Program-made: the position numbers and the translations under genes
The notes under the pieces: generated by a model
The model's database searches: none
The model's input: the letters and a program-made list of their open reading frames with translations, nothing else
Told to the model about the DNA's origin: nothing
DNA from: a virus
Length of the DNA stretch: 32,450 nucleotides
IMG/VR virus record: IMGVR_UViG_3300025327_000111
Coordinates: 1-32,450 of that record
Reading direction: 5' to 3' (one strand)
Shown here: positions 488 through 31,732 of the stretch, piece by piece
Layout: each line of letters starts with the position of its first letter
How positions within the stretch are numbered: the stretch's first letter is position 1

Positions 488-510
488 TTTCCACTTTCCT
501 TCCTTCCATC

Positions 511-13569: not shown

Positions 13570-13577
13570 TTCCTTCC

Positions 13578-14024
13578 TTACCTCCGATTAAAGGCCCGAA
13601 GGGCCTGGACTAAGAAATTATCAGCTTTAGTGCCTGGGTGGTTAACTTGTGGAAAATATACAACACCTGCATTCCTTTTCACCCAATCGAACCTCAGAAC
13701 TCGCCCGGATCTGGGACGGATGATATGGGCTTTTGTTCCTCTTACTACGAATCGGGCATAGGATTGGCCTCTATCATTCGTGGCGTTAGCGAATATCCGT
13801 ATCTGCCTCCCATCCCTGGTCGTCTGCACTGCTGTCTTCCTCAGCGAGTCCGCTAGAGTACCCGATCGCACTGACGGGATCGAATTCCCAGTCCCTGACC
13901 GGGGGGCTAACCTCTTTGCTTCGGCTAGAACGTTGTCGGCTCTTCGATTTAGCTCCGTTGCCCCCACTCGATCCAGCATCCGCTGGACGTTCCTCTGGAT
14001 CAGTTGTACCCTTACTACTGCCAC
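13578..14024 (-). CDS. HK97 gp10-like neck/tail completion protein
   Basis: The 148-aa protein matches the HK97-gp10 family involved in joining the tail to the head. Visible features are an N-terminal helix, RLAPRSGTG (a typical basic loop), SGTLADSLRK, SYARFVVRGTKAHIIRP, and HPGTKADNFLVQALRAF at the C-terminus. The start is GTG at 14024, with GAGGAG located 4-5 bases upstream. That start lies well inside the upstream 130-aa gene, giving a 239-base out-of-frame overlap. The match in length and motif order makes this the firmer of the two overlapping genes. Confidence 0.85.
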   Translation of the reverse strand: MAVVRVQLIQRNVQRMLDRVGATELNRRADNVLAEAKRLAPRSGTGNSIPSVRSGTLADSLRKTAVQTTRDGRQIRIFANATNDRGQSYARFVVRGTKAHIIRPRSGRVLRFDWVKRNAGVVYFPQVNHPGTKADNFLVQALRAFNRR

Positions 14025-14178
14025 TGGGCTCCTCTAGGGTGAGGGGGTCTATAAGGGTTGCATGTTTTCCTTCTGTAAGTATATTACGAAGAACTGGTGT
14101 TAGGGAAGTGGTTACTATTTGACCGGGGGACCAACCAAGGAATCTTCCTCCTACCAAAAAAGTTACTTCCATGTTCAT
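13786..14178 (-). CDS. Neck-region protein, 130 aa, overlapping the gp10-like gene
   Basis: Residues 1-50 look like a folded small protein (VTFLVGGRFLGWSPGQIVT, then LTEGKHATLIDPLT), similar in size and place to short actinophage proteins between adaptor and gp10-like genes. The rest (about 50-130) is low-complexity, rich in Ser, Gly, Arg, Glu and Asp, and most of it is encoded opposite in phase to the gp10-like gene. The start at 14178 follows GAGGTAA; a second ATG lies at 14172. The folded part ends before the overlap begins, so the tail may simply be an extension that arose by loss of a stop codon. Function is not known. Confidence 0.6.
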   Translation of the reverse strand: MNMEVTFLVGGRFLGWSPGQIVTTSLTPVLRNILTEGKHATLIDPLTLEEPSGSSKGTTDPEERPADAGSSGGNGAKSKSRQRSSRSKEVSPPVRDWEFDPVSAIGYSSGLAEEDSSADDQGWEADTDIR

Positions 14179-14183
14179 TTACC

Positions 14184-14690
14184 TCACGGTGCAGGGTCAG
14201 GAAGCTCAACTGAGAATTTAATAGTAAAACCGATACATCCTCCCTCAGGGCCTACTATAACGCTATCTCTCATAATAAACTTACGATTCCTTTTACTAGC
14301 TGCTAAGCAGCAAATAATAGCTCTAATGGCGATGTACAATTCTGTATAAACAAGCTTGGCTGATTCAGAAAGCTCAGCACAGGCGGGTGTGGTGCCGTCC
14401 TGATGGATGGTAGGAGCACAGCGAAGTAGGGTGACTGTGAAATCAGCAGCTAAGGGGCTGAAACAGAAAACTGGTCCTGTTGCTGCAGAGGGAAAATTGT
14501 CATGGACCCAGAGCCGATCGAGATTGACATGAAGCGCTCCAACACAACAATCGTCCCATGATGGAGGCCCCGCCACCACGCATGTTTGACAGGGGCATGG
14601 GCAAGGGGACTCCTCTACAAGGGCACAGCACACACAATCAAGAATTTCTTGCTGGAGATCAAACAGAAGAGTTGGAGTTAATACCGGCAT
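14184..14690 (-). CDS. Cysteine-rich neck/tail-terminator-like protein
   Basis: The 168-aa protein contains 15 cysteines, including CVCC, CPCPCQTC, DDCC and ICC. The pattern (N-terminal helix LLFDLQQEILDCVCCAL, then a beta region, then VTLLRCAPTI, a helix ending in IICCL, and GGCIGFTIKF) is one I associate with the actinophage protein following the head-tail adaptor, possibly a tail terminator or stopper. It abuts the adaptor stop with no gap. The cysteine richness is shared with the adaptor and suggests disulfide or metal stabilisation of the neck. The precise role in the neck is uncertain. Confidence 0.65.
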   Translation of the reverse strand: MPVLTPTLLFDLQQEILDCVCCALVEESPCPCPCQTCVVAGPPSWDDCCVGALHVNLDRLWVHDNFPSAATGPVFCFSPLAADFTVTLLRCAPTIHQDGTTPACAELSESAKLVYTELYIAIRAIICCLAASKRNRKFIMRDSVIVGPEGGCIGFTIKFSVELPDPAP

Positions 14691-15581
14691 TTAGGGGCAA
14701 TCCTCACCCGGAGGAGAAGTGGTCACAGTCCAGGTCTTTGCATCCGGGCTCCATATGGCCGGTCTTCGGCTCAAATGGTGGGGATTAAAGGTTTGAACTG
14801 CTAAATCCACTAAGTAGATTCCTGTTCGTCCTTCTCTCCAGAAGTCCATTGGGTCCAAGAAGCCAACAGTTACCCCTTGTCTTGTTATTGAAGAGGTGCG
14901 ACTAGGAAGTTGGCAGGGCTGCCCAACACACTGATTGATTAGTTGGCAAGCCATTTCAGCGGCTGCTAGGAGGGCAAGCTTAGGAACTGGTCTACCATAT
15001 GTTACCGTAACGCTCCAAGTACCTTCTTCGGTGTCTTCTTTATCTAAAGCCTGACAAGCAGGCCAACAGGCGCCACCACCGCCTGAGACCGGTACGGTGT
15101 TTTCTAGGCGGACAAGGCGCCTGAAATCGTCTACCCGATAAGTGTCTGGGTCCTGAACAATCCCATCAACTTTGACTTCATTGATACAGCAGACCGGATA
15201 GGGAAGATTGATCTCACAAACTTCCGTACAGGAGCAGTCTGAGCAGGTATTGCATGCAAAGTTAAACCACTGACCATCGATGAGAGTAGCCCTGGGGCCA
15301 CCACCCCACCATCCCCAGTAATCAAACACGGGAAGATCCGGGCAGGGAGAGCAGCTTTTACGGCAAGGCCTTAGCTTAACTTCACATTGCCCGAATTGTC
15401 GCCCCGTCAACGCCCAGACCAGCTCGGTAGCGGCTTGAATTGCTCCATCGATGATGGCTGGATCGATGGGTGTGCCGTTTTCAAGGCAAGGGGATTGAGT
15501 TTGCCCGGTAGGGCCGAGACAACAGAGATCAAGGGAGGTAAGGGGCCAAGAACAAGGCCCTACGGACGGGCATGTAGCCAT
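14691..15581 (-). CDS. Head-to-tail adaptor, cysteine-rich
   Basis: The 296-aa protein resembles actinophage head-to-tail adaptors (gp6/gp15-type connector), which dock on the portal. The N-terminal helical part (about 38-62) reads PAIIDGAIQAATELVWALTG followed by RQFG, the recognisable family signature. A long cysteine-rich insert follows (KSCSPCPDLP, CNTCSDCSCTEVC, YPVCCINEVKVDG), then VTYGRPVP, a helix with LLAAAEMACQLINQC, and RTSSITRQGVTVGFLDPMDF. I count 22 cysteines. ATG at 15581 follows AGGAGGTGAGGA. It precedes the other neck genes as expected, but the major tail gene lies upstream of it, which is unusual. Confidence 0.85.
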   Translation of the reverse strand: MATCPSVGPCSWPLTSLDLCCLGPTGQTQSPCLENGTPIDPAIIDGAIQAATELVWALTGRQFGQCEVKLRPCRKSCSPCPDLPVFDYWGWWGGGPRATLIDGQWFNFACNTCSDCSCTEVCEINLPYPVCCINEVKVDGIVQDPDTYRVDDFRRLVRLENTVPVSGGGGACWPACQALDKEDTEEGTWSVTVTYGRPVPKLALLAAAEMACQLINQCVGQPCQLPSRTSSITRQGVTVGFLDPMDFWREGRTGIYLVDLAVQTFNPHHLSRRPAIWSPDAKTWTVTTSPPGEDCP

Positions 15582-15606: not shown

Positions 15607-16059
15607 CTACGTATATTCCCATTTTTTCTTGCGTCTTTTATAGGAAGCCTTATTAGCACAAGATGTATTACAATAACGAGAATTCATGTGTGGTTGAAGA
15701 AAAAGGGCATCACAATTAGAACAATTAATTACTTTAGGTGTTCTTTCTTCGTGGTACTGGAGGACTCTTTTAAAAGTTGTTTTTCGTCGTTCGCACACGA
15801 GATCAGAAATCATAGATATAAGCATTATGACTTCCGCTCTTTTATGCACTTTCCAAAACCATTTAGTTTTGTGGCCCTTTTGAGACGGTGGATTATAAGG
15901 GCCATATTTTCCTCCAATATTCGACATCATATATAGACGGTCAATAATATCTTCATCTGTCGATGATACATCCAGACTTATGCTAGATTTTCCAAAACTT
16001 ACCGTGCCCTCTCCATCAAAAATACCAGCAACATAACCAATAGTAAGATCATCCCACAT
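15607..16059 (-). CDS. LAGLIDADG homing endonuclease with C-terminal zinc knuckle
   Basis: The 150-aa protein has one LAGLIDADG helix, YVAGIFDGEG (9-18), so it would act as a homodimer that cleaves a long, nearly palindromic target. Downstream parts include ISLDVSSTDEDIIDRL, GGKYGPYNP and WFWKVHKRAEVIMLI, which follow the usual core fold. The C-terminus carries CSNC (about 123-126) and RYCNTSCANKA, a zinc-knuckle-like tail that probably helps target recognition. It starts with ATG at 16059 after AGGGAGGG and sits between the major tail gene and the adaptor gene without breaking either. The coding sequence looks more AT-rich than its neighbours, in keeping with a mobile gene. Confidence 0.88.
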   Translation of the reverse strand: MWDDLTIGYVAGIFDGEGTVSFGKSSISLDVSSTDEDIIDRLYMMSNIGGKYGPYNPPSQKGHKTKWFWKVHKRAEVIMLISMISDLVCERRKTTFKRVLQYHEERTPKVINCSNCDALFLQPHMNSRYCNTSCANKASYKRRKKKWEYT

Positions 16060-16128: not shown

Positions 16129-16782
16129 TTAACCAGTCAATGGTTGGCAACCACAAAACTCTACAGGTGGCGGTATAGTGGTGAACTGGACGTGAAGCGC
16201 AGTATCCGATGCTAGTGGACTGAGTAGAGGCCCAGGAGTATTAGCAGCATCCTGAGCAACTACATCGAACGGACCTTCACCCCAGACACCAGACGGCACA
16301 GCTTCTGCAGTCAGTGTCCAAGTAAGAGGGCCGTTCTCTACTGTAAGATCGCCAACCCTGCCATTTGAGACACAAGGGAGCAGCCAATATAAGAATTGAG
16401 AAGCTCCAGTAGAAGGATCAACACATTCTTCACCCACTACCTTAGTCCAGAACTCAAGAGCGAATTTGTTACATTCACCAAGATTCTCATCTACGGCAAA
16501 TCCAACAACATCACCATTGAAGTCCAGAACAGTGTTAACACCTGACACAACCTCAAAGAGGTCAGGGTCGGCGTTACAGATGTTCAACTCCACGTTATAT
16601 CGCTTGAGAGTTGCACACCCAGTCTCGTTGATACATAGCTTGCCATTAGCAAGCTTAACAAGGAACTCATCCGGCTCTTCGATCTCAGCCGTGAGGTTGA
16701 GTGTAACGAATGACTCCGAAGTGACAAAAGCGCAAGCTCCTGTTACAACTTGGCAACATTCGTCCAGCCTCGTGACTCTCAA
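16129..16782 (-). CDS. Major tail protein (tail tube)
   Basis: The 217-aa protein from a TTG at 16782 resembles the actinophage major tail protein family. Recognisable parts are LRVTRLDECC at the N-terminus, TAEIEEPDEFLVKLANGKLC, LKRYNVELNICNADPDLFEV, FALEFWTKVVGEEC, FLYWLLPCVSNGRVGDLTVE and VWGEGPFDVV; it ends with HVQFTTIPPPVEFCGC. It polymerises into the tail tube. The family normally has about 15-20 residues before LRVTRLD, and codons for such an extension exist upstream in the same frame without a usual start (see the next entry). The strong hairpin after the gene fits a high-copy product. Its place before the adaptor gene is out of the usual order. Confidence 0.85.
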   Translation of the reverse strand: MRVTRLDECCQVVTGACAFVTSESFVTLNLTAEIEEPDEFLVKLANGKLCINETGCATLKRYNVELNICNADPDLFEVVSGVNTVLDFNGDVVGFAVDENLGECNKFALEFWTKVVGEECVDPSTGASQFLYWLLPCVSNGRVGDLTVENGPLTWTLTAEAVPSGVWGEGPFDVVAQDAANTPGPLLSPLASDTALHVQFTTIPPPVEFCGCQPLTG

Positions 16783-16867: not shown

Positions 16868-17887
16868 CTACGATTTAATACTACACCATGCTTCCCACCA
16901 GCGGAAGGCATTTCCCTCCACAGTTTGCCCAGAAGCGAATTCCCTAGCAGCAGCGGCAAGATCCTCCCTCTTACCACGATCCACAATAAGAGATCTTACC
17001 TGATCCATCCACTCCCTAGGCGTACCAGCTCCTAAAGCTGCCCCCGCCTCAACCATTCGCATATTGTCCGGTGTTGGCGATAGTACCGGTGCAACCCCCA
17101 CAGATGCCATCTCCAGTCCTTTAAGCCAGCTTTTCGCCTCATTAAACGGAGTTGGAGCCAAAGGCACAATGCCGATATCCATCTGCGCAACCGCCGCCGG
17201 ATACTCATTGATAGGAACTCCTTCCTGCCAAGTATGAGGATAGCGATTCCGGATCCCTAGCTTTTCTAGCGTCTTAGCCTCCCCCAAAGCAAGGAAGCGG
17301 GCGTCCTGCTTAGCAAGAGCTTCGTTCACTGCACCATGAGTGACTTGGAGATCCTCCGGGTGAGTAGCTGTATATCCAGCCCAGCCCACAGTCACAAGCG
17401 GGTCTCGGTCCGCCTTGATCTCCAAGTAGGATTCAGGAACGCAGTTAGGAAGCACAGCCACCCGGCCATGCCCTCCATACCGTTCCGCCAAGGCAGGAGT
17501 AGTCACTGTTACTAGATCTGCCATCTCGCAAGCTTCATTAGCAAACGCCCAATTCATGCCATTAGTTTGGTATGCATTGTAGGCCGGATTCTTAGGATGG
17601 ATACAAGTCAGATCGTCGTCCATATCTATGACAACCCGCACCCCATTCTTCTGGTATAACCGCAAAGCATCAACAATTGTCTGCTTGCACGGGCGCTGAA
17701 AAACTATGACGTCCGCATCCATAGGCATAACGCCTTCAATGCGATCAGTATTCGGATTCTTGATAACTGGTGGCATTTTCCTAGCCACCACAACATCATG
17801 CCCTTGTTCAGCCAATGCCTGCCCAGGCCAAATCATACGATAATATCCACAGCCACCACGGTCGGATGGGAAAATCTTAATTCTCAT
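16868..17887 (-). CDS. Glycosyltransferase, GT-B fold (group 1-like)
   Basis: The 339-aa protein fits a GT-B enzyme that moves a sugar from a nucleotide donor to an acceptor. The N-terminal Rossmann half opens with a Gly-rich PSDRGGCGYYR (7-17), has VVIDMDDDL (85-93) and VTVTTPALAERYG (126-138). VLPNCVP (145-151) leads into the C-terminal half with TVGWAGYTATHPEDL (167-180), MDIGIVPLAPTPFNEAKSWL (236-255) and LEMASVGVAPVLSP (258-271), where E249 and K252 occupy the usual nucleotide-sugar contact positions. It overlaps the preceding glycosyltransferase by ATGA. The acceptor is unknown; virion protein or host envelope are options. Confidence 0.85.
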   Translation of the reverse strand: MRIKIFPSDRGGCGYYRMIWPGQALAEQGHDVVVARKMPPVIKNPNTDRIEGVMPMDADVIVFQRPCKQTIVDALRLYQKNGVRVVIDMDDDLTCIHPKNPAYNAYQTNGMNWAFANEACEMADLVTVTTPALAERYGGHGRVAVLPNCVPESYLEIKADRDPLVTVGWAGYTATHPEDLQVTHGAVNEALAKQDARFLALGEAKTLEKLGIRNRYPHTWQEGVPINEYPAAVAQMDIGIVPLAPTPFNEAKSWLKGLEMASVGVAPVLSPTPDNMRMVEAGAALGAGTPREWMDQVRSLIVDRGKREDLAAAAREFASGQTVEGNAFRWWEAWCSIKS

Positions 17888-18585
17888 CTAATTACCTTCA
17901 TAGCTTCCTTAGTGTATCGAGTCTCTACTGGTCCGATTGTGACCGGATAGTGTTGCCCGATGCAGTCATGGCGAACATATGTCGGCATCCCAAGCAATTC
18001 TATAGCATCCTTATGATAGGCCGGATCATCGGACAGCCCGTCCTCGGCGTCCCATCTCCATCTTAACCTCTTGAACACGTCCCGCCGAATCAGCACGAAG
18101 GCAGCGGTCGCCATATGTTCCTGCACCTGGAGGTGCGCCAGATGAGGCACCTCCGCCCCCCTGAGACAGTAGGTCCCGACATGCCCGCCTACCAGCCCGT
18201 GATCCACCTCTAGGAGCTTAGGAAGGGCGTCAGCGGGCGGCCTACAGTCTGCAGCCATAAAGAGCAGGTGCGAAACTCCAGGGGCCGTACAGTAGTCCAC
18301 CACAAGGTTCTGGCCCATAGTTATGTGTCTGAGTCTGTTTGCCGTGGAAATAGATTCCCTGCCGTCATCTAGCGAGAAGGTCCAATACTCTCCGCCAATT
18401 TCTTTCAACCTCTGAAGCAATGGTTGGAAGGGCTCAACTCCCCTAGCATCGGTCTCGATAGCAGCGAAAAATTGAACAGGCTCCTCCACGCTCTGAACCA
18501 TGGCTTCAGCGTTGGCTAGCCAGGAGGACCAGCGATCTTCTATAGACATTGCGAAACTGGCTAAAGTTGTCCCAACAACGATCAC
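17884..18585 (-). CDS. Putative glycosyltransferase, GT-A-like
   Basis: The 233-aa protein looks like a single-domain GT-A-type transferase. HLLFMAADCRPP (107-117) stands where the DxD-like nucleotide-sugar motif is expected, although the motif itself reads ADC, so metal dependence is uncertain. GLSDDPAYHKDA (183-194) and the histidine in GQHYP (211-214) match features of phage and bacterial GT-A-like proteins near the catalytic base. There is no membrane helix. The GTG start (18585) overlaps the upstream sulfotransferase-like gene (GTGA) and the stop overlaps the next glycosyltransferase (ATGA), so the three are likely translated in step. Confidence 0.7.
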   Translation of the reverse strand: MIVVGTTLASFAMSIEDRWSSWLANAEAMVQSVEEPVQFFAAIETDARGVEPFQPLLQRLKEIGGEYWTFSLDDGRESISTANRLRHITMGQNLVVDYCTAPGVSHLLFMAADCRPPADALPKLLEVDHGLVGGHVGTYCLRGAEVPHLAHLQVQEHMATAAFVLIRRDVFKRLRWRWDAEDGLSDDPAYHKDAIELLGMPTYVRHDCIGQHYPVTIGPVETRYTKEAMKVIR

Positions 18586-19100
18586 AACTGATACCCCAAT
18601 CGATCCGCCATCTTTACTATTTCCTTTTTATATTCAGATGGAATCGGTGGAACTGGGATAGAAGTGGACAAAGGACCGACATTAATTGGGGCACTTAAGT
18701 GAGAGATATCTTCAAGATGAATTCTCACAGATGCAACCGATTCACAAAGATCTATCCAACGTAACCAAAATACCCAAGGATCCCATGTTTCTGCATATCG
18801 ATAAGCGTAATCCCCCCATGAATTGCCCGGCTGCAGCCATCCACCGGCTGCGTTAGAACGAACAACGTCATTCGGATTACGAATCAAATGAAAAACAAAA
18901 GCTCCACGTTGAAGATGAGGAGCAGCGAGCCACGATACTTCTGGTTCTTTTGCTGGGCCCTCACTTATATAACCTTTTTCATTAATTCCATATGCATATT
19001 CATGGGACCAATTTAATAAATGAGCCAGAAATAAGGTTCCAGAACGTGGCACTCCAGTAGCAACTATTTCAACTGAGTCAACTAATGAATTAATTTTCAT
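18582..19100 (-). CDS. Sulfotransferase-like P-loop protein
   Basis: The 172-aa protein carries GVPRSGTLFLAHLLN (16-30), matching the 5'-phosphosulfate-binding loop of PAPS-dependent sulfotransferases, and LIRNPNDVVRS (72-82), matching their 3'-phosphate-binding RxPxDxxxS region. It is shorter than cellular family members (often 250-300 aa), so it may be a compact phage version or partly reduced. It would transfer sulfate from PAPS to an acceptor, perhaps a sugar placed by the adjacent glycosyltransferases. A P-loop kinase acting on a small molecule is the main alternative. The start overlaps the HNH gene by 11 bases, and the stop overlaps the next gene (GTGA). Confidence 0.7.
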   Translation of the reverse strand: MKINSLVDSVEIVATGVPRSGTLFLAHLLNWSHEYAYGINEKGYISEGPAKEPEVSWLAAPHLQRGAFVFHLIRNPNDVVRSNAAGGWLQPGNSWGDYAYRYAETWDPWVFWLRWIDLCESVASVRIHLEDISHLSAPINVGPLSTSIPVPPIPSEYKKEIVKMADRLGYQL

Positions 19101-19494
19101 CTATATTGCCATGGTTCCGCAGAAATCTCTTCCCCATGATGCCCGCATCTATATCGTATTTCCTGTGGCACGAGCGGCACATCTGTGACCACTCTTCTCT
19201 CACACGACGATACTCATGGTCCAGATTGGCCCATTCAATCCAGCCCTCAGTCTTGCCACAGTTGGAGCAAGGACCCTTAGCGGCCCCCCAATTACGTCGT
19301 ACCCAATCATGCACAGAGGGGTAAGCAGCCGCATCTCCCTTGAAATCTCGTAGATTAGGCACACCCCTTCTAGAATCGTATTGACAAGTTGTTGAACAAT
19401 ATTTTCCACGTCCATGTTTACGGATGCTGGCTGGAATAGAAAATATTAAACCACATTGTTTACATGTTGTATTAGTATAAATTGTACTCATCAT
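19090..19494 (-). CDS. HNH endonuclease with N-terminal zinc finger
   Basis: The protein is 134 aa from ATG at 19494, chosen because it gives an ATGA overlap with the methyltransferase stop; a GTG at 19500 and an ATG at 19491 are alternatives. The N-terminal zinc finger (CKQCG and YCSTTC) is followed by the HNH core: CSNCGKTEGWIEWANLDHEY, then MCRSCHRKYD. The LDHEY and CHRKYD blocks supply the nuclease histidines, and the four cysteines of CSNC and CRSC hold zinc. Such free-standing HNH genes are typical phage homing endonucleases. It interrupts the sugar-modification cassette between two of its genes. Confidence 0.88.
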   Translation of the reverse strand: MMSTIYTNTTCKQCGLIFSIPASIRKHGRGKYCSTTCQYDSRRGVPNLRDFKGDAAAYPSVHDWVRRNWGAAKGPCSNCGKTEGWIEWANLDHEYRRVREEWSQMCRSCHRKYDIDAGIMGKRFLRNHGNIDEN

Positions 19495-20051
19495 CGGCAC
19501 GCAACAATTTGATAATTATAACCATGATTAGGAGTAAATAATTCAACTCTAGCGATTACTTGCTTCCACCCAGTTTCGTTGAGCATTGCTTCTACAGCCT
19601 CAACATCCCAACCGTGATAGTGTTCGGGATTACCAAGATCATTCTCTCCAATAGGAGTAGACAAAAGCAAGAACCTGGATTTCTTTCTAATTTGTTCTAG
19701 AGCAAATTCTGGGTCATCTAGATGTTCGATTGTCTCCGAACAAATGAACAGATCTACTGGATGGATTTGCTGAACAGTCTCTTCAAGAGGGCCAGTTAAC
19801 TGATAACCCGATGCAAAATCCCCAAGAGTCTTTATCTGCAATGGAAGAGCATTAATTATCGCACCATTACCACAAGAAAGATCTGCTCCAGATTTCAGTT
19901 TAAAATCAGCAACCATCCATTGCCCTAATTTGATGGTGTGCTCCACCCGGAGATGGTGACCGTATCCATAAATCTTGTGATCATGCGGTTTGGCGTAGAT
20001 CTTGGCAAGTTCCTCTGGAGACCAAGCAGGACGAAGACGCCTTCTAAACAT
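19491..20051 (-). CDS. SAM-dependent methyltransferase, class I
   Basis: Starting at ATG 20051 (preceded by AAAAGGAAA) the protein is 186 aa; a longer in-frame start at 20117 would run deep into the epimerase gene and is less likely. SGADLSCGNGAIINAL (54-69) matches the SAM-binding Gly-rich loop, and DLFICSETIEHLDDP (100-114) is the typical motif IV region of small-molecule methyltransferases. LLLSTPIGEND and HGWDVEAVEAML fit later strands. It would methylate a sugar or other glycan component, though a DNA or protein target cannot be ruled out. It overlaps the epimerase by eight bases, supporting a joint role in glycan synthesis. Confidence 0.8.
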   Translation of the reverse strand: MFRRRLRPAWSPEELAKIYAKPHDHKIYGYGHHLRVEHTIKLGQWMVADFKLKSGADLSCGNGAIINALPLQIKTLGDFASGYQLTGPLEETVQQIHPVDLFICSETIEHLDDPEFALEQIRKKSRFLLLSTPIGENDLGNPEHYHGWDVEAVEAMLNETGWKQVIARVELFTPNHGYNYQIVACR

Positions 20052-20925
20052 TCGTTTCCTTTTTAAGCGCTCGTTCGACGGCGTCCTCAAGCTGAATCCG
20101 AGGCTTATAGACATCAAATAACGCCCTAGTGTCTGCCACTCGTCTATGAACCCCTATAGGTGCATCCAGATGCAAGTTAACTTGCGGATTGTAGCTTGCA
20201 GTTTTGCAGACCATTTCCTTAAGCTGAAAGAAGGATGTAGCCCTCCCAGTACCGATATTAAGCGGACCATCAACTCCTTCATTGATGCAGGCAAGGGTAG
20301 CCCCAACAATGTCATCGATGTGGATCCAATCTCGCATCTGGAGCCCATCTCCCCAAATCTCAAAGGGATCTGCCCTTCGCCTCGCCCGGTCGATGAAGGA
20401 GGGCCACGGGTAGTCAAGATCTTGGCCCTCTCCATAGCCACTGAAGGGTCTGAGAACTGTAACAGGCACGCCCTCAGCCCTAGCGTAACGAGCTAACTGC
20501 TCCCCCGTCAACTTGGCCCAGCCATAGGTGAGGTCAGGAGTCCGGACATTGTCCAAATCAATCATGGACTCGAACAGCTTCACCATGCTGGTGCGGCCCT
20601 GGAATTCGATAGGGTAGGCAGCCGAACTAGAAAAGTAGACCACCCTACCTGGACGAGTCCGCAGAGCCCACCCGAACATCTCAGCGTCAATCGCTAGATC
20701 TACAGCAACGGATAGCGGAGCGCCTTCTATTGTGGCTCGCCCACCCACCACGGCAGCCAGATGGATCACCAGATCATAGTGCGCACCAGACATCCGAAAA
20801 AAATCTCGGGCATCCATGCCTTCTTGGACATCAACACCAAGGACATCCCAGCCCTCAGCTTCTAAAGCTGGAACCATGTGGCGGCCTACAAAGCCCAAGT
20901 GCCCTGTTACAAGCGCACGTTTCAT
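20044..20925 (-). CDS. NAD(P)-dependent sugar epimerase/dehydratase (extended SDR)
   Basis: The 293-aa protein is a classical extended short-chain dehydrogenase acting on nucleotide sugars. The Rossmann loop TGHLGFVG (7-14), acidic VDV (31-33), LAAVVGG (56-62), the catalytic serine block SSSAAYP (99-105) and YGWAK (134-138, Tyr and Lys of YxxxK) are all intact. RDWIHIDDI follows in the C-terminal substrate domain, typical of GDP/UDP/CDP-sugar epimerases and dehydratases. It would make the donor sugar used by the two downstream glycosyltransferases. The start follows AAGAAGGAA. Of the cassette's genes this and the glycosyltransferases look more GC-rich than the methyltransferase, HNH and sulfotransferase genes. 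Confidence 0.9.
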   Translation of the reverse strand: MKRALVTGHLGFVGRHMVPALEAEGWDVLGVDVQEGMDARDFFRMSGAHYDLVIHLAAVVGGRATIEGAPLSVAVDLAIDAEMFGWALRTRPGRVVYFSSSAAYPIEFQGRTSMVKLFESMIDLDNVRTPDLTYGWAKLTGEQLARYARAEGVPVTVLRPFSGYGEGQDLDYPWPSFIDRARRRADPFEIWGDGLQMRDWIHIDDIVGATLACINEGVDGPLNIGTGRATSFFQLKEMVCKTASYNPQVNLHLDAPIGVHRRVADTRALFDVYKPRIQLEDAVERALKKETNV

Positions 20926-20947
20926 GTTCCTTCTTCCTATTAAAAAA

Positions 20948-23719
20948 CTAGTTCCCTAACTGCTGGGTATCAGGAAGGGTGTAACCAAGAAGTAGAGCTT
21001 GTCCTGATACTAATAAAAGATCATAGAGAAGATTAGGAATCACTTGTAATTGAATTCCTAATCCTGTTGCTACTTTAATTGGATTAGTGAATACTATATG
21101 GTCTCCTATTCCAAATGATCCTCTAAACAAAATGTCATTAACTCCAAATGGCTCGAAAAATAAAATCCAGTCACTGATAAGAACATCAGAGGCAGTAAGG
21201 CCCAGTAGAGTATCGATTCCTACCGAAACAGCAGTTATGTAATGATTACGATTAGGCTCCCCCGCCTTTGTTGCCACGGCAATTGGGCTTCCTGGTGGAG
21301 GAACTCCATCATCAAATTCAATCCAAGATTCTAGGACACGCACCGTAGTCGGCACACCAGTAGCCAAAGTCGGCATATCAGCTTCTGGGAGTAAGGTAGT
21401 CTCTAGCTGGAATTCAGTTTGAGGATCTGGGCCGTTGAGATAACGAACTCGGAAACAACCAGCCCTGATAGGAAGAGTGATAGAACGGAGAAGACCGGCC
21501 AGAACTGTGTATTTGTCGAAGGGTCTCCAAGTTACTCCTCCATCCTCCGACCAATCAACTACAAGGCCATCCGTAGCAGAAGCTACGTCTGAGTAAGCGA
21601 ATATCCTAATCCCCTGGAAGTCGTCAAGATCAGGGTCGCAACAGTCTCCAATGAATTCTCCACCACCTGAAGCAGTTGGAGGAGAAAGGACGACGAAACC
21701 GGAAATCTCATCTACAGCAGCCCCAGTGAATGGCCAGGTTCCCGAGACTGCCCCAGCGACCGTTGGAACGATATCGTCAACGGAGTGTGACAGTGCTGCC
21801 GATGAAGTATCGATTCTCTCAGCAAAGCTCGTGATAGGTGTGAAAGTTCTAGCTCCTGCTCCTAGAACCATGGAAGCATAGACTACACCGTTGTTCACGG
21901 CAGAGGCCGGGCCGATGGAAACGGGGGAGATTCCTCCGGCCTGAGCAACCAAGTTCGATTCCAGGACCGGATCACCGACTGGGAGGAGATCTTGATAAGC
22001 AGAGATTGATCCGATAGCCTCGGCAGATGTATCAAATGTCCAAGTATAGGACGCTGGCTCCGCTGCTCCTGCTCGGAGCCACCAGAGGCTCATTTTAAGG
22101 GTGCCAAGAGATTCGTCTTGAATCAGAGTCCAACCTGTTGGAGGAATGATGGCTGGAGAAGCAATTTGTCCTGCTGTCAAAGCAACCATGGAACCGAGGA
22201 GGTTTTCCCCAGTTCCAACCCCACTTCCTGCAGATGTTCTTGTACCAGTATCTCCTCCTGCAACGAATACCTCATCATCAAGCGAACCGTTTGAGTCAGC
22301 TCGCTCAGTCATTCCAGCAGGCGTAGACCAAGTACCGGTTCCTGTAGTTCCTCCAAAATAGCAAGCCACTAATAACGTATTCGGGAAGGTGGCTGGAATC
22401 GAAGGGATAACAACATCATCCTCGACTACTCCAGATAGATCAGCGACACCAGAACTACCGTTAACCGGTGAACCTACATTTATTACATTACGGTAAGCAG
22501 ATATACGACCAAATGCGTTTCCGTTTCCACTTCCAGTTTGATGAATTATATTAAAAGAATGGATAACAGGCTCGCTGGCTGTTGCTCGTTTCCAAAACAA
22601 CAATTGCTGGAGAGGCTGCGCTCCAACAGGTGAATCATCTTCTCTGATCAGAGTCCAACCGACAGGAGGATTAACTACATCTGGTGTGACGCTGGTGGGA
22701 CTTGATATACCTATCTGAGCAATCATCACATCATCTAAAATAACACCGGCCGGTCTTGAAACAGGCAGATTGTTGCTCCCAGCTAGTATGCCAAGAGATA
22801 ATTGTACCCCAACCGCCACAAAGGTTGGTGTTGCGAAGGCAGTCGGAACAGGGGTTACTGCCACCATTTGGGAGACGACGAAAGTAGAGTTTAGGCCAAT
22901 ATCAGTCGTCGCACTACGAATACCTGTGGTCCCACCTGCACTGAAAACCTCATCATCAAGACAAGTACTGTTGGCACTCTCCACAGGGAGATCTCCATTG
23001 CCATCTGCTCGTTCAGTCATTCCGGCTGGGGGATTCCATCCTAATATCCCATTACCAGAAAATGTGGCAAGTAACAATGAAGCAGATGATACCCCAGAGA
23101 TAGATGGCGCAACTGCCGGATTAGCAGGAGATCCTGCGCTGATCTGTGATTGTCCAGAGCTACCAGAAATCGGGTTGCCAGTAGTAACAATATTTATATA
23201 GGCAGCAATCCGGGCAAGAACTACACCGCCAGTAAGAGATGAATTAATAGTGAAGGTATAAGTGGCAGGCTCAGCGGCAGTAGCTCTTTTCCAAAATAGG
23301 AAGACATGAACTGTACCACTCATGTCGTCTCTAATCGGAGTCCAACCTGCTGGGGGGACTATTGTTGGGTTGACAACCGATCCTGTTTCTATCTGTGCAA
23401 AAAGAAAATCATTTAAAACAGTACCAGTTGGCTTAGTAATAATAATTGATTCGCTGGTTGAATCCTGTGCATTCGTTGCATCTGGAGACACAGAACGGAA
23501 CGTCGGAAGAGTAGCCCCACCAGCACCCTTAGCAGCTATAGAAGCCACCATAATATCGTCAGCAACTACCCCAGCAGGCTTCGTAATAGGCAGTGAAGCA
23601 ACAGCTGAACCAGATGCTGAGGATGCAGCAACGAAGGAAGAAGGCGGAGCGCCACCTAATAGAGCACCACCTGTAACACTGTTACATTCGCTTAACCGGG
23701 TGGCCCACTTTCTAGACAT
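20948..23719 (-). CDS. Large fibre/decoration protein with repeated domains
   Basis: The best start is ATG 23719, three bases past the upstream stop and after AGGAG, giving 923 aa. Repeated beta-rich units are recognisable: one from about residue 94 to 291, one from 320 to 517 and a diverged third from 520 to 681. Shared blocks are KPxGxxxDDxMxAxI, PPxGWTxIRxD, LFWKRATAxEP, GSSG, PAGMTERAD, DDEVFxAGG and MVAxT. After about 687 comes a different region (GLVVDWSEDGGVTWRPFD, FRVRYLNGPDPQTEFQL) typical of phage structural beta domains, and a last 90-110 residues starting near NRNHYITAV shared with the next upstream gene. It is probably a head or tail fibre; a bacterial-adhesin-like origin of the repeats is possible. 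Confidence 0.72.
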   Translation of the reverse strand: MSRKWATRLSECNSVTGGALLGGAPPSSFVAASSASGSAVASLPITKPAGVVADDIMVASIAAKGAGGATLPTFRSVSPDATNAQDSTSESIIITKPTGTVLNDFLFAQIETGSVVNPTIVPPAGWTPIRDDMSGTVHVFLFWKRATAAEPATYTFTINSSLTGGVVLARIAAYINIVTTGNPISGSSGQSQISAGSPANPAVAPSISGVSSASLLLATFSGNGILGWNPPAGMTERADGNGDLPVESANSTCLDDEVFSAGGTTGIRSATTDIGLNSTFVVSQMVAVTPVPTAFATPTFVAVGVQLSLGILAGSNNLPVSRPAGVILDDVMIAQIGISSPTSVTPDVVNPPVGWTLIREDDSPVGAQPLQQLLFWKRATASEPVIHSFNIIHQTGSGNGNAFGRISAYRNVINVGSPVNGSSGVADLSGVVEDDVVIPSIPATFPNTLLVACYFGGTTGTGTWSTPAGMTERADSNGSLDDEVFVAGGDTGTRTSAGSGVGTGENLLGSMVALTAGQIASPAIIPPTGWTLIQDESLGTLKMSLWWLRAGAAEPASYTWTFDTSAEAIGSISAYQDLLPVGDPVLESNLVAQAGGISPVSIGPASAVNNGVVYASMVLGAGARTFTPITSFAERIDTSSAALSHSVDDIVPTVAGAVSGTWPFTGAAVDEISGFVVLSPPTASGGGEFIGDCCDPDLDDFQGIRIFAYSDVASATDGLVVDWSEDGGVTWRPFDKYTVLAGLLRSITLPIRAGCFRVRYLNGPDPQTEFQLETTLLPEADMPTLATGVPTTVRVLESWIEFDDGVPPPGSPIAVATKAGEPNRNHYITAVSVGIDTLLGLTASDVLISDWILFFEPFGVNDILFRGSFGIGDHIVFTNPIKVATGLGIQLQVIPNLLYDLLLVSGQALLLGYTLPDTQQLGN

Positions 23720-23721
23720 TC

Positions 23722-24711
23722 CTAAACTCCTGTATAGCCAATAAGGGTGATCTTCCCGATAACATTGATTCCTCCGGGCCCCAGCGTCAAAACCACTGAT
23801 GTATTCACAGGGCACTGAATTGGGAAAGTAAACATGTAATCGAAATTCTCGTCAACAAATTGATCGATAAGTGTGCCGCCCGATGCAAGCGTGTATGTCT
23901 TTCCAGTTGTTGGGCTGACATCATAGCCTAGCAGAATCGCTGTGATGTAGTGCCGCAATCCGACTTCCGCTGGCCGTGTGATGACTACGGCCGTGTTGCC
24001 AGCGCTTGTAGCATTCATAGTCCAAGTGGCTGGTTGTGCTGTAGAGGTAACTGTGCCAGTTACACAAACACAGTCATCCAGATGAACTATAACAGGTTCA
24101 TTTGGTACATTATTAATCGTTACTCCGCCAGTAATACAAACACACTCATCTAGATGAACAATAATAGGCTCTTCACCTGGGCAGATAGTAACGGAATCCT
24201 CAGCGCAGGTTAGGGGCCTAATATCAAAGTTATTTCCAGTTACTCCGACCGTTCCACCATCAAGTACAACTACTATGGGTTCAGCCCCGGGACAAATGGT
24301 TACGGAGTCCTCTGCACAGGTAAGAGGACGAATATCGAAATTGTTACCTGTTACGCCAACTGTACCGCCGTCGAGGATGACTACTATTGGCTCATCGCCT
24401 GGGCAAATTGTGACTGAATCCTCAGCACAGGTAAGAGGTCTAATATCAAAGTTATTGCCAGTAACTCCAATAGTTCCACCATCAAGCACTACTACAATAG
24501 GATCATCACCTGGGCAGATAGTGATTGAATCAGTAGAACAGTCCCGAGGCGCTTGGACGAAAGTACCAGAAACTGCGATTGGCTCATCAAGGTGGACAAT
24601 CCAGGGAGTAGTTCCTTGACAGACGGTTACGGAATCAGTGAGACAGTCCAGGTGACAACACCCTCCGCTACCGCCACCCGATGTACAAGGATTTGGAGTT
24701 ACAAAGCTCAC
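23722..24711 (-). CDS. Repeat-containing structural protein, shares C-terminal domain with next gene
   Basis: The 329-aa protein starts at GTG 24711 in a GTGA overlap with a 51-aa gene. After a Cys/Gly-rich N-terminus comes a run of repeats: a diverged unit (23-57), three near-identical 37-residue units (58-94, 95-131, 132-168), and partial units to about 219. Each has CxxDSVTICPG, then PIVVxLDGGT, then GVTGNN. The regular spacing suggests a beta-solenoid or strand-stacking shaft. The last 90 residues (RHYITAILLGY onward) resemble the end of the downstream 923-aa protein, implying a common attachment or trimerisation function. It lies between capsid and neck genes, so a head decoration fibre is a fair guess. 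Confidence 0.7.
   Translation of the reverse strand: MSFVTPNPCTSGGGSGGCCHLDCLTDSVTVCQGTTPWIVHLDEPIAVSGTFVQAPRDCSTDSITICPGDDPIVVVLDGGTIGVTGNNFDIRPLTCAEDSVTICPGDEPIVVILDGGTVGVTGNNFDIRPLTCAEDSVTICPGAEPIVVVLDGGTVGVTGNNFDIRPLTCAEDSVTICPGEEPIIVHLDECVCITGGVTINNVPNEPVIVHLDDCVCVTGTVTSTAQPATWTMNATSAGNTAVVITRPAEVGLRHYITAILLGYDVSPTTGKTYTLASGGTLIDQFVDENFDYMFTFPIQCPVNTSVVLTLGPGGINVIGKITLIGYTGV
24208..24540 (-). repeat. Three in-frame 111-bp tandem coding repeats
   Basis: Three 37-codon units (24430-24540, 24319-24429, 24208-24318) encode nearly the same 37 residues. The DNA copies differ at many third positions while the amino acids stay constant, for example the encoding of CAEDSVTICPG. This shows selection on the protein after duplication rather than a very recent copy event. 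Diverged partial units lie on both sides. Confidence 0.9.
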
Positions 24712-24863
24712 TTAGAAGTCTTTCCAGACGGAAGTGATGTTATCCGGGCTATGTTATGGCTGACCATTTTGGCTGTGCCGCCGACACTTAGTATCTTGTG
24801 TATGAAGGAGAATAGCTCAGAATGAGAGCCTTGAAATTCATCTCCCACCTGAAACCTAGCCAT
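24708..24863 (-). CDS. Small unknown protein, 51 aa
   Basis: ATG 24863 lies just inside the end of the homing endonuclease gene (8-base overlap) and the stop TGA at 24708-24710 overlaps the GTG start of the repeat protein (GTGA). The peptide begins MARFQVGDEFQG and ends PSGKTSK. It fills almost the whole 144-base interval between two larger genes. The double overlap in an operon that uses this arrangement throughout is good evidence for translation. No family is recognised. It might be a native gene displaced or a remnant left at the endonuclease insertion. Confidence 0.6.
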   Translation of the reverse strand: MARFQVGDEFQGSHSELFSFIHKILSVGGTAKMVSHNIARITSLPSGKTSK

Positions 24864-25410
24864 TACGCTCTTTTTGTCTCTCTAATTTACAAGTTCGACA
24901 ATGGCGTTCACCAGAGGGGGTGAAATAAGCATGTTCCAGACTAGTTTGATCGTGTCCTTTGAAACAGGTTTTCTTTTTTAGAGGACCGTAATTCCGATTA
25001 CTACTAAATTTAGACATAAGTTCAGTTTGATTTGCGATATATTCTCTATGCTCCTTTTGCATCTCTAGAATTCTCTCAATAACTTCTGCAGCTGCTAATC
25101 GTCGTCGTTCACTTAAAAGAGGTACAATAGAGCAAAGAAGATGAGCAATATCATTTGCGGCGCCAACATGCCAGCGCTTCATAGGTTTATCTCCAAGTTG
25201 TGTTTCACTTGGAGTAAAATCATAGATTTTACCTATACCAGTTATAGTCTGTAAACGTTCAATTGTATCGAAATCACACATACTTACAACAATATTAGGT
25301 TGCTTTCGAGCGAATCCCATAGAACCTTCGCCTTCGATAATCCCAGCAACCCATCCAATTTCTACAAGATTCATACGATTAATAGAAGTTTTCTTTAGAT
25401 ATTTAATCAT
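24856..25410 (-). CDS. LAGLIDADG homing endonuclease with zinc-binding C-terminus
   Basis: Starting at ATG 25410, one base past the upstream stop codon, the protein is 184 aa; a longer frame to 25491 would overlap the upstream gene heavily. The single LAGLIDADG helix reads WVAGIIEGEGSMGF (about 20-33), with acidic catalytic E. VVSMCDFDTIERLQTITG, KIYDF and RWHVGAANDIAHLL match the core fold. The tail has CFKGHDQTSLEH and RHCRTCKLERQKER, a CxxGH...CxxC zinc-finger-like module seen with phage HNH nucleases. It separates the capsid-associated gene from the fibre genes. The single motif implies a homodimer. Confidence 0.88.
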   Translation of the reverse strand: MIKYLKKTSINRMNLVEIGWVAGIIEGEGSMGFARKQPNIVVSMCDFDTIERLQTITGIGKIYDFTPSETQLGDKPMKRWHVGAANDIAHLLCSIVPLLSERRRLAAAEVIERILEMQKEHREYIANQTELMSKFSSNRNYGPLKKKTCFKGHDQTSLEHAYFTPSGERHCRTCKLERQKERNG

Positions 25411-25411
25411 C

Positions 25412-26293
25412 TTATACACACGGTCCAGAACAAAGCGCAACTTGCACGGCAAAGAGGCAGCACACGAACGACAGAGCCCACTCAGTCTCAAGACGAACAG
25501 TTAGATCGTTAACCTGCTTGTCGAAAGCTTCTTCTAGTTCAGGAGGATTGAAGAAGGCTTCGCCTCTCCAACCAACGATTTCACTTGTTGCGAAGATCCA
25601 GGTTGTGCCGTCAACTGGAGCGACACCTGCGGGACCAGTGCCAGGATACCCGGCGCCAGCAATTACCTTGTTGCAGGAGAAAGTCTCAAGTCGGTCCTCT
25701 CGGCGTACCAGAAGATCGGCAGTGGCGAAGAAGGGGACTGCGCCAAAATTCATGTGGATGGTGCCAGGGCCTGGCCAGCAGTCAGCGAGGGCTGATTCAA
25801 GGACGCCCAAGGCGGCTACAGGAGAAAGAGCAACACCTGGGGATAGATCAACTGGAACGATTCCGCAGGAAGGATTGCCGAAGGCGAGGCTAGGGCTTAC
25901 TGGGCCATTAGAGGTGGTGCCGGTCCAGAAGATGTTCTCTAGCGCCCGTTCAACGTTCGCACCATAACGATCTTTGACTATCTGGTAAAACTGCTCACCG
26001 GTCCAGCCAACAGGAGGACAAGATAAACTTGAGTAAACTATAAAAGGATCTGATTCGCAAAAATCGACACCACGGTCAAAAGACTTGGCAGGAAGATCCG
26101 GGCCACCAGTTACTGGGGGGCACTCAGCAAAGGTTGAGTCGAGATCTGAGCAGAACCAGCTGGGGACTTGGACACCAGACCTCCAGTGCGGGTCCGTAGG
26201 TTCAGTTAATGACTGGAGGCCGGTCAACAGGCCGTAGCAGTGCCGGTCCGGCTGGGGCGGGTCCAGAATTAGGCCCGGCGGAATTAAAGCCAT
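25412..26293 (-). CDS. Capsid-associated structural protein downstream of major capsid
   Basis: The 293-aa protein follows the capsid gene and a hairpin, and starts at ATG 26293 after TGGAGGAAAC. It contains early DPHWRSGVQVPSW, cysteines in FCSDLD and SCPPVGW, then GEQFYQIVKDRYGANVERAL, ALGVLESALADCWPGPGTIH, NKVIAGAGYPGTGP and TWIFATSEIVGWRGE. The helix followed by the GAGYxGTGP and TWIFATSE blocks recalls HK97-fold proteins, so it might be a second capsid or vertex (pentamer-like) protein. A minor head protein is the simple alternative. It is not a membrane protein, though its last 25 residues are hydrophobic and cysteine-rich. Confidence 0.6.
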   Translation of the reverse strand: MALIPPGLILDPPQPDRHCYGLLTGLQSLTEPTDPHWRSGVQVPSWFCSDLDSTFAECPPVTGGPDLPAKSFDRGVDFCESDPFIVYSSLSCPPVGWTGEQFYQIVKDRYGANVERALENIFWTGTTSNGPVSPSLAFGNPSCGIVPVDLSPGVALSPVAALGVLESALADCWPGPGTIHMNFGAVPFFATADLLVRREDRLETFSCNKVIAGAGYPGTGPAGVAPVDGTTWIFATSEIVGWRGEAFFNPPELEEAFDKQVNDLTVRLETEWALSFVCCLFAVQVALCSGPCV

Positions 26294-26320
26294 GTTTCCT
26301 CCAGAAAGAAGTCTTAGGTT

Positions 26321-26350
26321 GAGGGGAGGAGCCTTTCGGCCCCTCCCCTC
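26321..26350 (-). promoter_or_regulatory. Strong GAAA-tetraloop hairpin after major capsid gene
   Basis: In the transcript, arms of 13 bases (26338-26350 and 26321-26333) pair completely with one G.U wobble and close on a GAAA tetraloop, a very stable GNRA-type loop. It begins 11 bases after the capsid stop. The sequence after it is AACCUAAGACUUCUUUCU, not a clean U-run, so it may cause partial termination or shield the 3' end of the abundant capsid message. Confidence 0.65.
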
Positions 26351-26360
26351 GATATATCAA

Positions 26361-27986
26361 TTAAGCAGCAGGACAAGCAGCCGTGTCGTCAGCGTTGACA
26401 TTACGACCACCAACCGTACCGAGCGGGCAAATGGGAACTGTCACCAAAACACCTCTTGGCCCTCTACGGCCTATACAATAGAAGTCTTCAGTGAAAATAT
26501 TATAGTCGTTGACTGCATTGAGTACACTATCCCTCGTAATCCCGAGATCCAGCGTCCCACCATCGAACTGAACGTAAGATCCAGGAGTATTGAACAGGAT
26601 CTGAACAGTTGCGGGCCAGGTAAGAGTATTACCAGGAACGGGATCCTCAAGTGCCTGCCAGAAGGACAGGAAGTTGATAGAAACACCGAAACTAGCAAAC
26701 CATGCCCGAATAGTGGCATCAGACACTAGCCCGGAGTTGCCAACCCCACCAAAGTCCTGGCGAGCGATGTCAGCCCGGATGGCTTCCTTCAGCCAGCAAG
26801 GAGCCCAAGCCTCAACTAGTGAGTCACAGCAGTGCCCATTACGGTCACGGTAGGCCTGCACTTCAAGAAGAAGAGCAGCAACAACCGCTGAACCAGCAGC
26901 AAATGTGGCTCCAACCGTGACAGCATCAGCATCTGCAATAACGGCGTTGATCTTGAAAAGGCTCTCGGCACGGTCATGCAGGAAGAATACCCGGTTGAGG
27001 AACCAACGAACCTGCTCAGGATATGCCCGGTCGATGAGGTTGCCGACGATCACGCAAACGCCGTGGGCATCAAGACGGCACTCTTCAAACTCAGGACAGT
27101 CCACTCTGATACAAGGCTTAGTGGGCTGGCCAGTTACGGCAGCGATGTCATCAGCCTCGGTCCAGATCCAGTCAACCACGTCAGTGAAATCAATTGGCGC
27201 AAAAGTTGGCCAACGAACTCCGCCTCGGTTAGCCCGGAAAGTAGGCAGAGAGAAGAGTGCAGGACGAGGACAGACAGACTCATACAGATCGTAGAGGATT
27301 TCAGAAGGAGCGCACCAACCACCAGCAGCGAGAAGAGTTTCATAATTCTTCACACTAGCAAGGTCGTTGATGGCCTGCCAAGCATCGCTCTGGTTCATCT
27401 GAGTGAGATCAAAGCCGTCCCGGAACTGCTTCTCCATCGTGGCAATAGGGAACTTCTGCTTGCTGTTCCCAATGACACGGGCCTTCTGATAAACAGCGTT
27501 TGCCAAGCCGCCCATGTCGAGGCTAGAACCCATCTGAACCTGAGGGATGTCCGCTGCGGCGGTGATCACCAAGCGGGGGCTAGCAGGAGCCTCAGGAACA
27601 GCCGTAGAGGGCACAGGCGCCTTTGCAACCACAGGAGCGGGCTCCGGTGGCTCAACAGGCTCTGAGGCCGCTACAACAGGCGCTGGAGGCGCTGGTGCGG
27701 GAACGGGAGCAGGAGCCGCTATAACAACCGGCTCAGGCACAGGCTCGGGGGTGGGCTCTGGGGCGTCCAGATCTGCCAGAGTGGAAGCGAACTCCGCACG
27801 AGAAGCACGCTCAGCCTTTAGAGCAGGACGAGAAGCCTTGATAGCAGCTAGCTCCGCGACGTCATCCCCAGTTGGATGCTCCACGCTCCGGAGAGCAGCA
27901 AGGCGCTCATTTGCCTTACCTTCTAGCTCATTTATCGCCTCGTCGGATAGCCCACCGAGGCTGTCGGGAAGAGCGAAACGCTCCAT
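26361..27986 (-). CDS. Major capsid protein with fused scaffold-like N-terminus
   Basis: The 541-aa protein starts at ATG 27986 behind a strong AGGAGGT site. Residues 1-75 are helical and charged (LSDEAINELEGKANERLAAL), like an HK97 delta-domain scaffold. Residues about 76-136 are a Pro/Ala/Glu/Val linker with PEPTPEPVPEPV and alternating PAP repeats. From about 140 the HK97-fold capsid follows: MEKQFRDGFDLTQ, APSEILYDLYESVCPRPALF, GGVRWPTF, a CPEFEECRLDAHGVCV cysteine loop, and ending DFYCIGRRGPRGVLVTVPIC. The scaffold and linker are expected to be cut off by the upstream protease. The mature capsid protein should be about 400 aa. Confidence 0.92.
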   Translation of the reverse strand: MERFALPDSLGGLSDEAINELEGKANERLAALRSVEHPTGDDVAELAAIKASRPALKAERASRAEFASTLADLDAPEPTPEPVPEPVVIAAPAPVPAPAPPAPVVAASEPVEPPEPAPVVAKAPVPSTAVPEAPASPRLVITAAADIPQVQMGSSLDMGGLANAVYQKARVIGNSKQKFPIATMEKQFRDGFDLTQMNQSDAWQAINDLASVKNYETLLAAGGWCAPSEILYDLYESVCPRPALFSLPTFRANRGGVRWPTFAPIDFTDVVDWIWTEADDIAAVTGQPTKPCIRVDCPEFEECRLDAHGVCVIVGNLIDRAYPEQVRWFLNRVFFLHDRAESLFKINAVIADADAVTVGATFAAGSAVVAALLLEVQAYRDRNGHCCDSLVEAWAPCWLKEAIRADIARQDFGGVGNSGLVSDATIRAWFASFGVSINFLSFWQALEDPVPGNTLTWPATVQILFNTPGSYVQFDGGTLDLGITRDSVLNAVNDYNIFTEDFYCIGRRGPRGVLVTVPICPLGTVGGRNVNADDTAACPAA

Positions 27987-28041
27987 TATTACCTCCTAGC
28001 CCTTAGGGCTGTCGTAGTTACTGCTATTAGCATACTATAAC

Positions 28042-28221
28042 TTATCCTGCACGGCTAGTTATACGCACACGGCCGCCTGCCGCTGTGGCAGCCTTCCGAG
28101 CATCTTCAACAGAAGAAAACTCGGCAACTAAGGCCCCTTTTGGATCGAGGGCCTGAAATATTGTAGATCTAGCTTGACCAACAACTCCCTGAGTTTTTCC
28201 TTTATTACAGCCGCAACCCAT
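28042..28221 (-). CDS. Small head-region protein, 59 aa
   Basis: ATG 28221 directly follows the stop of the protease gene (TAA then ATG) and has GGAGGAA just upstream. The 59-aa product starts MGCGCNKGKTQGVVG and continues with a compact alpha/beta pattern (TIFQALDPKGALVAEFSS, VEDARKAATAAGG) to the stop at 28042-28044. Small proteins with an N-terminal GCGC or CGC motif are common in actinophage head operons, but their function is unknown. The 55 bases between it and the capsid gene contain only a small 5-bp hairpin next to the capsid ribosome-binding site. Confidence 0.75.
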   Translation of the reverse strand: MGCGCNKGKTQGVVGQARSTIFQALDPKGALVAEFSSVEDARKAATAAGGRVRITSRAG

Positions 28222-30129: not shown

Positions 30130-30131
30130 AA

Positions 30132-31712: not shown

Positions 31713-31732
31713 TGGTTATAGGATAACAGTCT

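Follow-up and report, generated by a model that had tools for sequence, protein, structure and literature searches.

A putative glycan-modification cassette between the capsid and tail genes of an uncultured phage, and the recurrence of its core enzymes in environmental phages

Why should a phage carry a chain of sugar-modifying enzymes in the middle of its structural genes? The question is raised by IMG/VR virus record IMGVR_UViG_3300025327_000111, a viral record of 32,450 bases, here called the window, in which almost every gene lies on the minus strand. Six open reading frames (ORFs) at positions 16868-20925, every frame open and all on that strand, make up the cassette: in order of transcription they encode a nucleotide-sugar epimerase/reductase (EPI293), a methyltransferase (MT208), an HNH-type protein (HNH136), a sulfotransferase-like protein (ST172) and two glycosyltransferases (GT233 and GT339). 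Our reading, to which we give a probability of roughly 0.6, is that the phage uses this module to modify its own virion proteins with glycans, the acceptors named below being candidates.

Along the direction of transcription the portal, a protease/MuF-like protein, the major capsid protein, a 293-amino-acid (aa) protein and a LAGLIDADG ORF are followed by two repeat proteins (329 aa and 955/923 aa), the cassette, the major tail protein, a second LAGLIDADG ORF, the head-tail adaptor, the tape measure and minor tail proteins and an amidase. An earlier note on this DNA had placed the cassette between capsid and tail genes and described its members as linked by overlaps of 4-11 bases. Both statements hold: the major capsid protein and the pentamer lie upstream, the major tail protein lies downstream, and the five junctions overlap by 8, 10, 11, 4 and 4 bases. 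Overlaps of at least 4 bases occur at all five cassette junctions versus 4 of the 28 remaining junctions of the window (hypergeometric p ~5e-4), which supports co-translation of the set. Promoter and terminator scans gave site numbers no higher than in shuffles. The 293-aa protein is taken to be the pentamer since mycobacteriophage JAMaL has an annotated capsid pentamer gene next after its hexamer gene. In Actinomycetia phage DSL-LC01 the major tail gene comes only 17 bases after the ORF that occupies the pentamer position; the gap between pentamer and tail holds one small ORF in Streptomyces phage Abt2graduatex2 and four ORFs in JAMaL. These differing gaps among related phages indicate that the spot is variable, and the window has a long insertion there.

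The core of the cassette travels in other phages. A scan of environmental contigs with a GT233 alignment yielded 50 loci, which form 22 groups at 85% DNA identity, and partner genes were counted within 6 kb of GT233 in these 22 non-redundant carriers. The epimerase accompanied GT233 in 17 carriers, the methyltransferase in 14 and a GT339-type glycosyltransferase in 13; 20 carriers had one or more of these partners. The triad of GT233, methyltransferase and epimerase is a recurrent module, new here. The order of genes is epimerase, methyltransferase, GT233 and GT339 in the window and the reverse in L003 and most freshwater carriers, so that the set is kept together despite reshuffling, and the catalytic motifs of all four proteins are invariant across many phages. 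The groups do not amount to 22 independent acquisitions; terminase and capsid families differ among the carriers, which argues for at least four lineages. Several carriers, with unrelated phage backbones, have the module near structural genes, namely a protease and an HK97-type major capsid protein (L003), a protease and a phrog_777 major capsid protein (L036), a baseplate wedge and tail fibre (L041), a terminase (L040, L044 and L048), a tail fibre (L039) or a tail fibre/head decoration protein (L053); neighbours lacking PHROG names could be structural or otherwise.

The sugar enzymes can be assigned with differing precision. In EPI293 the GxxGxxG motif, Tyr134 and Lys138 are invariant in 11 relatives, giving the YxxxK pair of the short-chain dehydrogenase/reductase (SDR) family, and the nearest solved structures are MoeE5 and guanosine diphosphate (GDP)-fucose synthase. 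3,5-Epimerases and GDP-fucose synthase use a catalytic Cys and His. These positions align to Ala102 and Tyr172 in EPI293, so that a 4-epimerase or reductase is more likely. For MT208 the listed ORF begins at 20117, while relatives begin near the ATG at 20051. Alone it gives a weak family match; the alignment of its 13-member family displays a DLSCGNG loop for S-adenosylmethionine (SAM) and a SETIEH motif, and the family profile matches HEN1 (2'-O-) and UbiG-type O-methyltransferases in the PDB (E 9e-4 to 9e-3). GT233 matched no Pfam, PHROG or NCBIfam family. Its predicted model, of moderate quality (predicted local distance difference test, pLDDT, 61; predicted template modelling score, pTM, 0.69), retrieved GT-A enzymes with Foldseek (best E ~3e-6, probability 1.00) and also resembles nucleotidyltransferases related to GT-A enzymes. 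A DxD-like site lies at D113, reading AAD in the window and D-x-D in relatives (e.g. LDADT, VDSDV), and D186-D187-P188 and H212 are invariant. From this predicted fold GT233 is a putative GT-A-fold glycosyltransferase; a pattern search found no GT233 in bacterial genomes. GT339 has 25 viral relatives. Among uncultured actinophage-like contigs (L006-L030) its relatives often stand amid small glycosyltransferase, methyltransferase and epimerase genes, just past tail genes.

Not all members of the cassette seem equally old. The GC content at third codon positions (GC3) is 0.53 for the epimerase gene, 0.585 for GT233, 0.41 for the HNH gene, 0.34 for the methyltransferase gene and 0.27 for ST172, and in relatives methyltransferase and GT233 adjoin directly, with no HNH gene between them. 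ST172 and HNH136 therefore look like later arrivals, and HNH136 is probably a homing-type insertion between the methyltransferase and ST172.

The evidence on ST172 is divided. A PxSGT-type 5'-phosphosulfate-binding (5'-PSB) loop and an R-x7-S 3'-phosphate-binding (3'-PB) element are the two motifs by which sulfotransferases (PF13469/PF00685) bind 3'-phosphoadenosine 5'-phosphosulfate (PAPS). ST172 has a 5'-PSB-like loop, GVPRSGT at residues 16-22, and a 3'-PB-like R74NPNDVVRS82 (R74-x7-S82), a pair that appeared in no other ORF among 6,200 locus segments and in none of 200,000 shuffles. No family was matched at E 0.1, and the sulfotransferase profile PF13469 gave 8.6 bits over its first 20 positions only, below the cut-off of 27. 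A structure model from the single sequence (pLDDT 34.7) was too poor to use. Relatives of ST172 were found neither by tblastn in phages and plasmids, nor by scanning viral and genome contigs with sequence patterns, nor in the 25 carrier records searched, and PF13469 had no match in the records behind L002-L030. The sulfotransferase-like call of the earlier note is thus supported by two motifs and left unsupported by the profile and by the search for relatives; the chance that ST172 would be a working sulfotransferase is about one half.

A sulfotransferase in company with such enzymes is not restricted to the window. The carrier L040 (IMGVR_UViG_3300005805_000094, here G035) encodes a full-length PF13469 sulfotransferase of 295 aa (E 6e-18), which adjoins two GT339-family genes, one of them confirmed as phrog_7162, and a glycosyltransferase-like ORF. 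Further glycosyltransferase genes and ORFs of 427-722 aa are nearby; the long ORFs are fibre-like by sequence and PHROGs assigns them no function. This arrangement implies that a sulfotransferase and GT339-type enzymes in a triad-carrying phage are not unique to the window. Like the window with its putative ST172, G035 has the triad plus a sulfotransferase and GT339-type genes in one phage, but the triad and the sulfotransferase stand at separate places, and the full-length enzyme aligns with ST172 at the first loop only. In the segment at 45000-60647 of G035 (L175), glycosyltransferase-like ORFs, a methyltransferase, the sulfotransferase and the two GT339-type genes are interleaved with three to four long paralogous fibre-like ORFs. 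One may speculate that the phage makes a methylated and sulfated virion glycan by a mobile module of three to four genes, which is distributed among many unrelated environmental phages and gained a sulfotransferase independently at least twice, a proposal that we regard as tentative and rather doubtful.

If virion proteins are modified, the genes adjoining the cassette offer candidate acceptors (Table 1). The larger ORF lies 22 bases upstream of the epimerase; the earlier note has the cassette directly after the two repeat proteins. That this ORF and the 329-aa ORF are structural is suggested by position, repeats and one PHROG of no known function; the PHROG search assigned no function to the 329-aa protein. 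The 955-aa protein had no relatives in viral contigs and, in phages, one 12% fragment match only.

Some carriers have a different neighbour. Among 26 representative carriers, 7 have an ORF of a mucin-like family near the cassette. Proteins of this family, approximately 400-1440 aa long, combine a signal peptide and a long stretch rich in Thr and Ser with acidic helical repeats and a basic C-terminus that is conserved; in L044 the ORF lies nine bases after the epimerase gene. The family has at least 235 viral matches, and neither of the two members scanned had a PHROG. These proteins may form a secreted coat around infected cells, and in a freshwater group the secreted Thr-rich protein next to the cassette could be the acceptor instead. 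A constant association of the family with the cassette was rejected: of 42 long loci collected with the mucin-like family as seed, GT233 was found in 8.

Table 1. Coordinates and basis of assignment for the cassette, its surroundings in the window and mucin-like ORFs in other loci.
Feature	Position	Strand	Basis or remark
Major capsid (hexamer) protein	26361..27986	-	phrog_777 E 2e-97; upstream landmark
Capsid pentamer homologue, 293 aa	25412..26293	-	phrog_779 E 5e-35; upstream landmark
329-aa protein, ~38-aa repeats	23722..24711	-	repeats read in translation; candidate acceptor
Repeat protein, 955 aa (923 aa from ATG at 23719)	20948..23815	-	phrog_3329 in three stretches; candidate acceptor
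EPI293, extended SDR nucleotide-sugar epimerase/reductase	20044..20925	-	PF01370 E 2.5e-36
MT208, class I SAM methyltransferase	19491..20051	-	13-member alignment
HNH136, HNH-type protein	19090..19500	-	phrog_1271 E 2e-6
ST172, short sulfotransferase-like protein	18582..19100	-	two short motifs
GT233, putative GT-A-fold glycosyltransferase, new family	17884..18585	-	predicted fold
GT339, GT-B-type glycosyltransferase	16868..17887	-	phrog_7162 E 8e-40
Major tail protein	16129..16782	-	phrog_792 E 2e-66; downstream landmark
Mucin-like ORF	L044:12152-14245		
Mucin-like ORF	L048:6737-8644		
Mucin-like ORF	L058:4246-6870		
Mucin-like ORF	L068:7085-8659		
Mucin-like ORF	L072:7362-8567		
Mucin-like ORF	L079:12237-16565		

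The pathway that we envisage would start with EPI293 converting a nucleoside diphosphate (NDP)-sugar of the host. GT233 and GT339, classed by fold and family, would attach sugars to an acceptor, MT208 would probably O-methylate the sugar, and the locally acquired ST172 may add sulfate from host PAPS. The most likely acceptors would be the late virion proteins made simultaneously, i.e. the adjacent repeat proteins, the capsid or the tail tube. In this scheme the module was presumably inserted at the variable spot between pentamer and tail tube, its core genes moving between unrelated phages, and its mode of working would resemble that of the O-methyltransferase and glycosyltransferase block of phage Corndog, but with different enzymes. 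Since the cassette encodes one sugar-nucleotide enzyme only, most of the donor has to be supplied by the host, and the earlier description of a full donor-to-modification path is overstated. The methylated, possibly sulfated virion sugar also proposed there agrees with the linked set for sugar-nucleotide, methyl and glycosyl transfer, while its sulfate depends on the two ST172 motifs.

Comparable arrangements are known. In Corndog-group phages an O-methyltransferase and glycosyltransferases sit between portal and protease (PMC4351075), and PMC12363180 reports glycosylated proteins for Che8, Corndog and Myrna. Where the modification is known in mycobacteriophages, capsid and tail tube subunits are reported to bear glycans at their C-termini (PMC12619734). 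Corndog and its cluster O relatives (gp35 O-methyltransferase, gp36-gp38 glycosyltransferases) share with the window a methyltransferase and several glycosyltransferases chained in the structural operon, few genes from the capsid, in a phage of an actinobacterial host. The insertion site is different, portal-protease versus pentamer-tail tube, and the Corndog block is without the epimerase and sulfotransferase-like genes of the window. Glycosylation of Corndog virion proteins is reported (PMC12363180, PMC4351075). A partly homologous set is found in the cultured Streptomyces phage KimJongPhill, whose genes 4-6 comprise a sugar-nucleotide enzyme, a methyltransferase and a GT339 homologue (26% identity) and lie immediately upstream of the terminase and portal genes; it has a UDP-glucose (uridine diphosphate glucose) dehydrogenase where the window has the epimerase, and no GT233 or sulfotransferase is annotated in its set.

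A number of observations weigh against virion modification. Module genes are beside an exonuclease homologous (61%) to window ORF 1083-2105 in L060 and L061 and beside an integrase in L069, and in Arthrobacter phage Racecar a GT339 homologue is near transfer RNA and DNA-repair genes; the cassette thus lies near structural genes in several carriers and away from recognisable ones in others. The 955/923-aa and 329-aa proteins are absent from all 50 other GT233 loci, so they need not be the acceptor. The six-gene neighbourhood pictured in the earlier note accordingly recurs in part, with GT233 joined by the epimerase, the methyltransferase or GT339 in 20 of the 22 groups, and never with these two proteins. 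In several freshwater carriers the cassette neighbour is the secreted Thr-rich protein, not a virion protein. No gene for adenosine 5'-phosphosulfate (APS) kinase, the source of the PAPS donor, was found in the window or in a second contig of a close strain, which weakens the case for the sulfate step. Finally, comparison of the window enzymes with the block of the Corndog-group phage Catdawg by blastp and hhalign gave nothing significant; with no homology detected, the cassette is an analogue rather than a sequence relative.

Part of this evidence would be accommodated if the enzymes modified the host surface or a phage-encoded secreted surface protein, e.g. to block superinfection, with the glycan never on the virion. 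The mucin-like neighbours and the carriers distant from structural genes are in line with such a role, which we nevertheless consider unlikely: no secreted mucin-like gene adjoins the cassette in the window, the mucin-like family also occurs without the cassette, and the cassette is located inside capsid gene blocks in L003, L036 and the window. Gtr-type seroconversion employs a flippase and a membrane-bound transferase, and neither is among the six cassette proteins, whose maximum 19-residue hydropathy of 0.5-1.3 reveals no strong membrane segment. The earlier preference for a virion over a host-surface target is hence favoured by placement and by the missing membrane component and weakened by the freshwater mucin-like neighbour. 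Decaying or neutral cargo without selected function, with ST172 and HNH136 as insertion remnants, is improbable in our judgement. ST172 is indeed short, AT-rich at third positions and without relatives, and the HNH gene and two LAGLIDADG genes are close by, but all frames are intact, and the other four enzymes keep their invariant catalytic motifs and stay linked. Hypermodification of phage DNA with glycosylated, methylated or sulfated bases is the least probable explanation of those weighed here. Glycosyltransferases and sulfotransferases do feature in proposed phage DNA systems (Iyer et al. 2013, cited in PMC10829341), but no thymidylate-synthase-type hydroxymethylase (PF00303) was found in either contig with positive controls, polymerase, deoxynucleoside monophosphate (dNMP) kinase and other replication genes are outside the cassette, and most carriers have the cassette near virion genes. 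A Tet_JBP search matched no control and was uninformative.

Virion glycosylation has so far been shown in few mycobacteriophages. The enzyme set defined here, which includes two families without a name (GT233 and MT208), recurs in environmental phages of several unrelated lineages, in at least 22 groups once redundancy is removed. This recurrence suggests that glycan coats may be a general phage strategy and that the module can serve as a marker for finding them. If the sulfate step is true, it would constitute a modification of phage surface charge, which was not found in the literature searched.

The second contig has 44,146 bases (IMG/VR record 3300025313_000035) and shows a 99.05% match to window 25401-32450 and a 100% match to window 1-518. 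Since the two overlap at both ends, they can be joined into a circular map of some 69.0 kb (32,450 + 37,058 - 518); they are close strains, not one genome, and the cassette region is covered by the window alone. The rest of the genome, in the second contig, encodes DNA polymerase A, dNMP kinase, an SNF2-type helicase, an AAA_24 protein, a PD-(D/E)XK nuclease and a protein like deoxycytidine monophosphate (dCMP) deaminase. A WhiB-like protein recognised there from its sequence, together with the phage backbone, indicates an actinobacterial host; a DNA search found no close cultured relatives of the window.

Minor observations concern mobile elements. One LAGLIDADG ORF of the window (24856-25491) and the 3' end of the pentamer gene share 80 bases. 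In the near-identical contig L002 (12575-12630) this ORF is missing and a small ORF directly follows the pentamer gene, whose end differs between the two as expected after homing with co-conversion. The second LAGLIDADG ORF (15607-16059), between the major tail protein and the head-tail adaptor, is approximately 30% identical to the first. In L082, the 592-aa AAA_24 protein at 13042-14820 has an intein-like stretch that splits its P-loop region (GASKSGKG / LPYSTPTLTPTGW).

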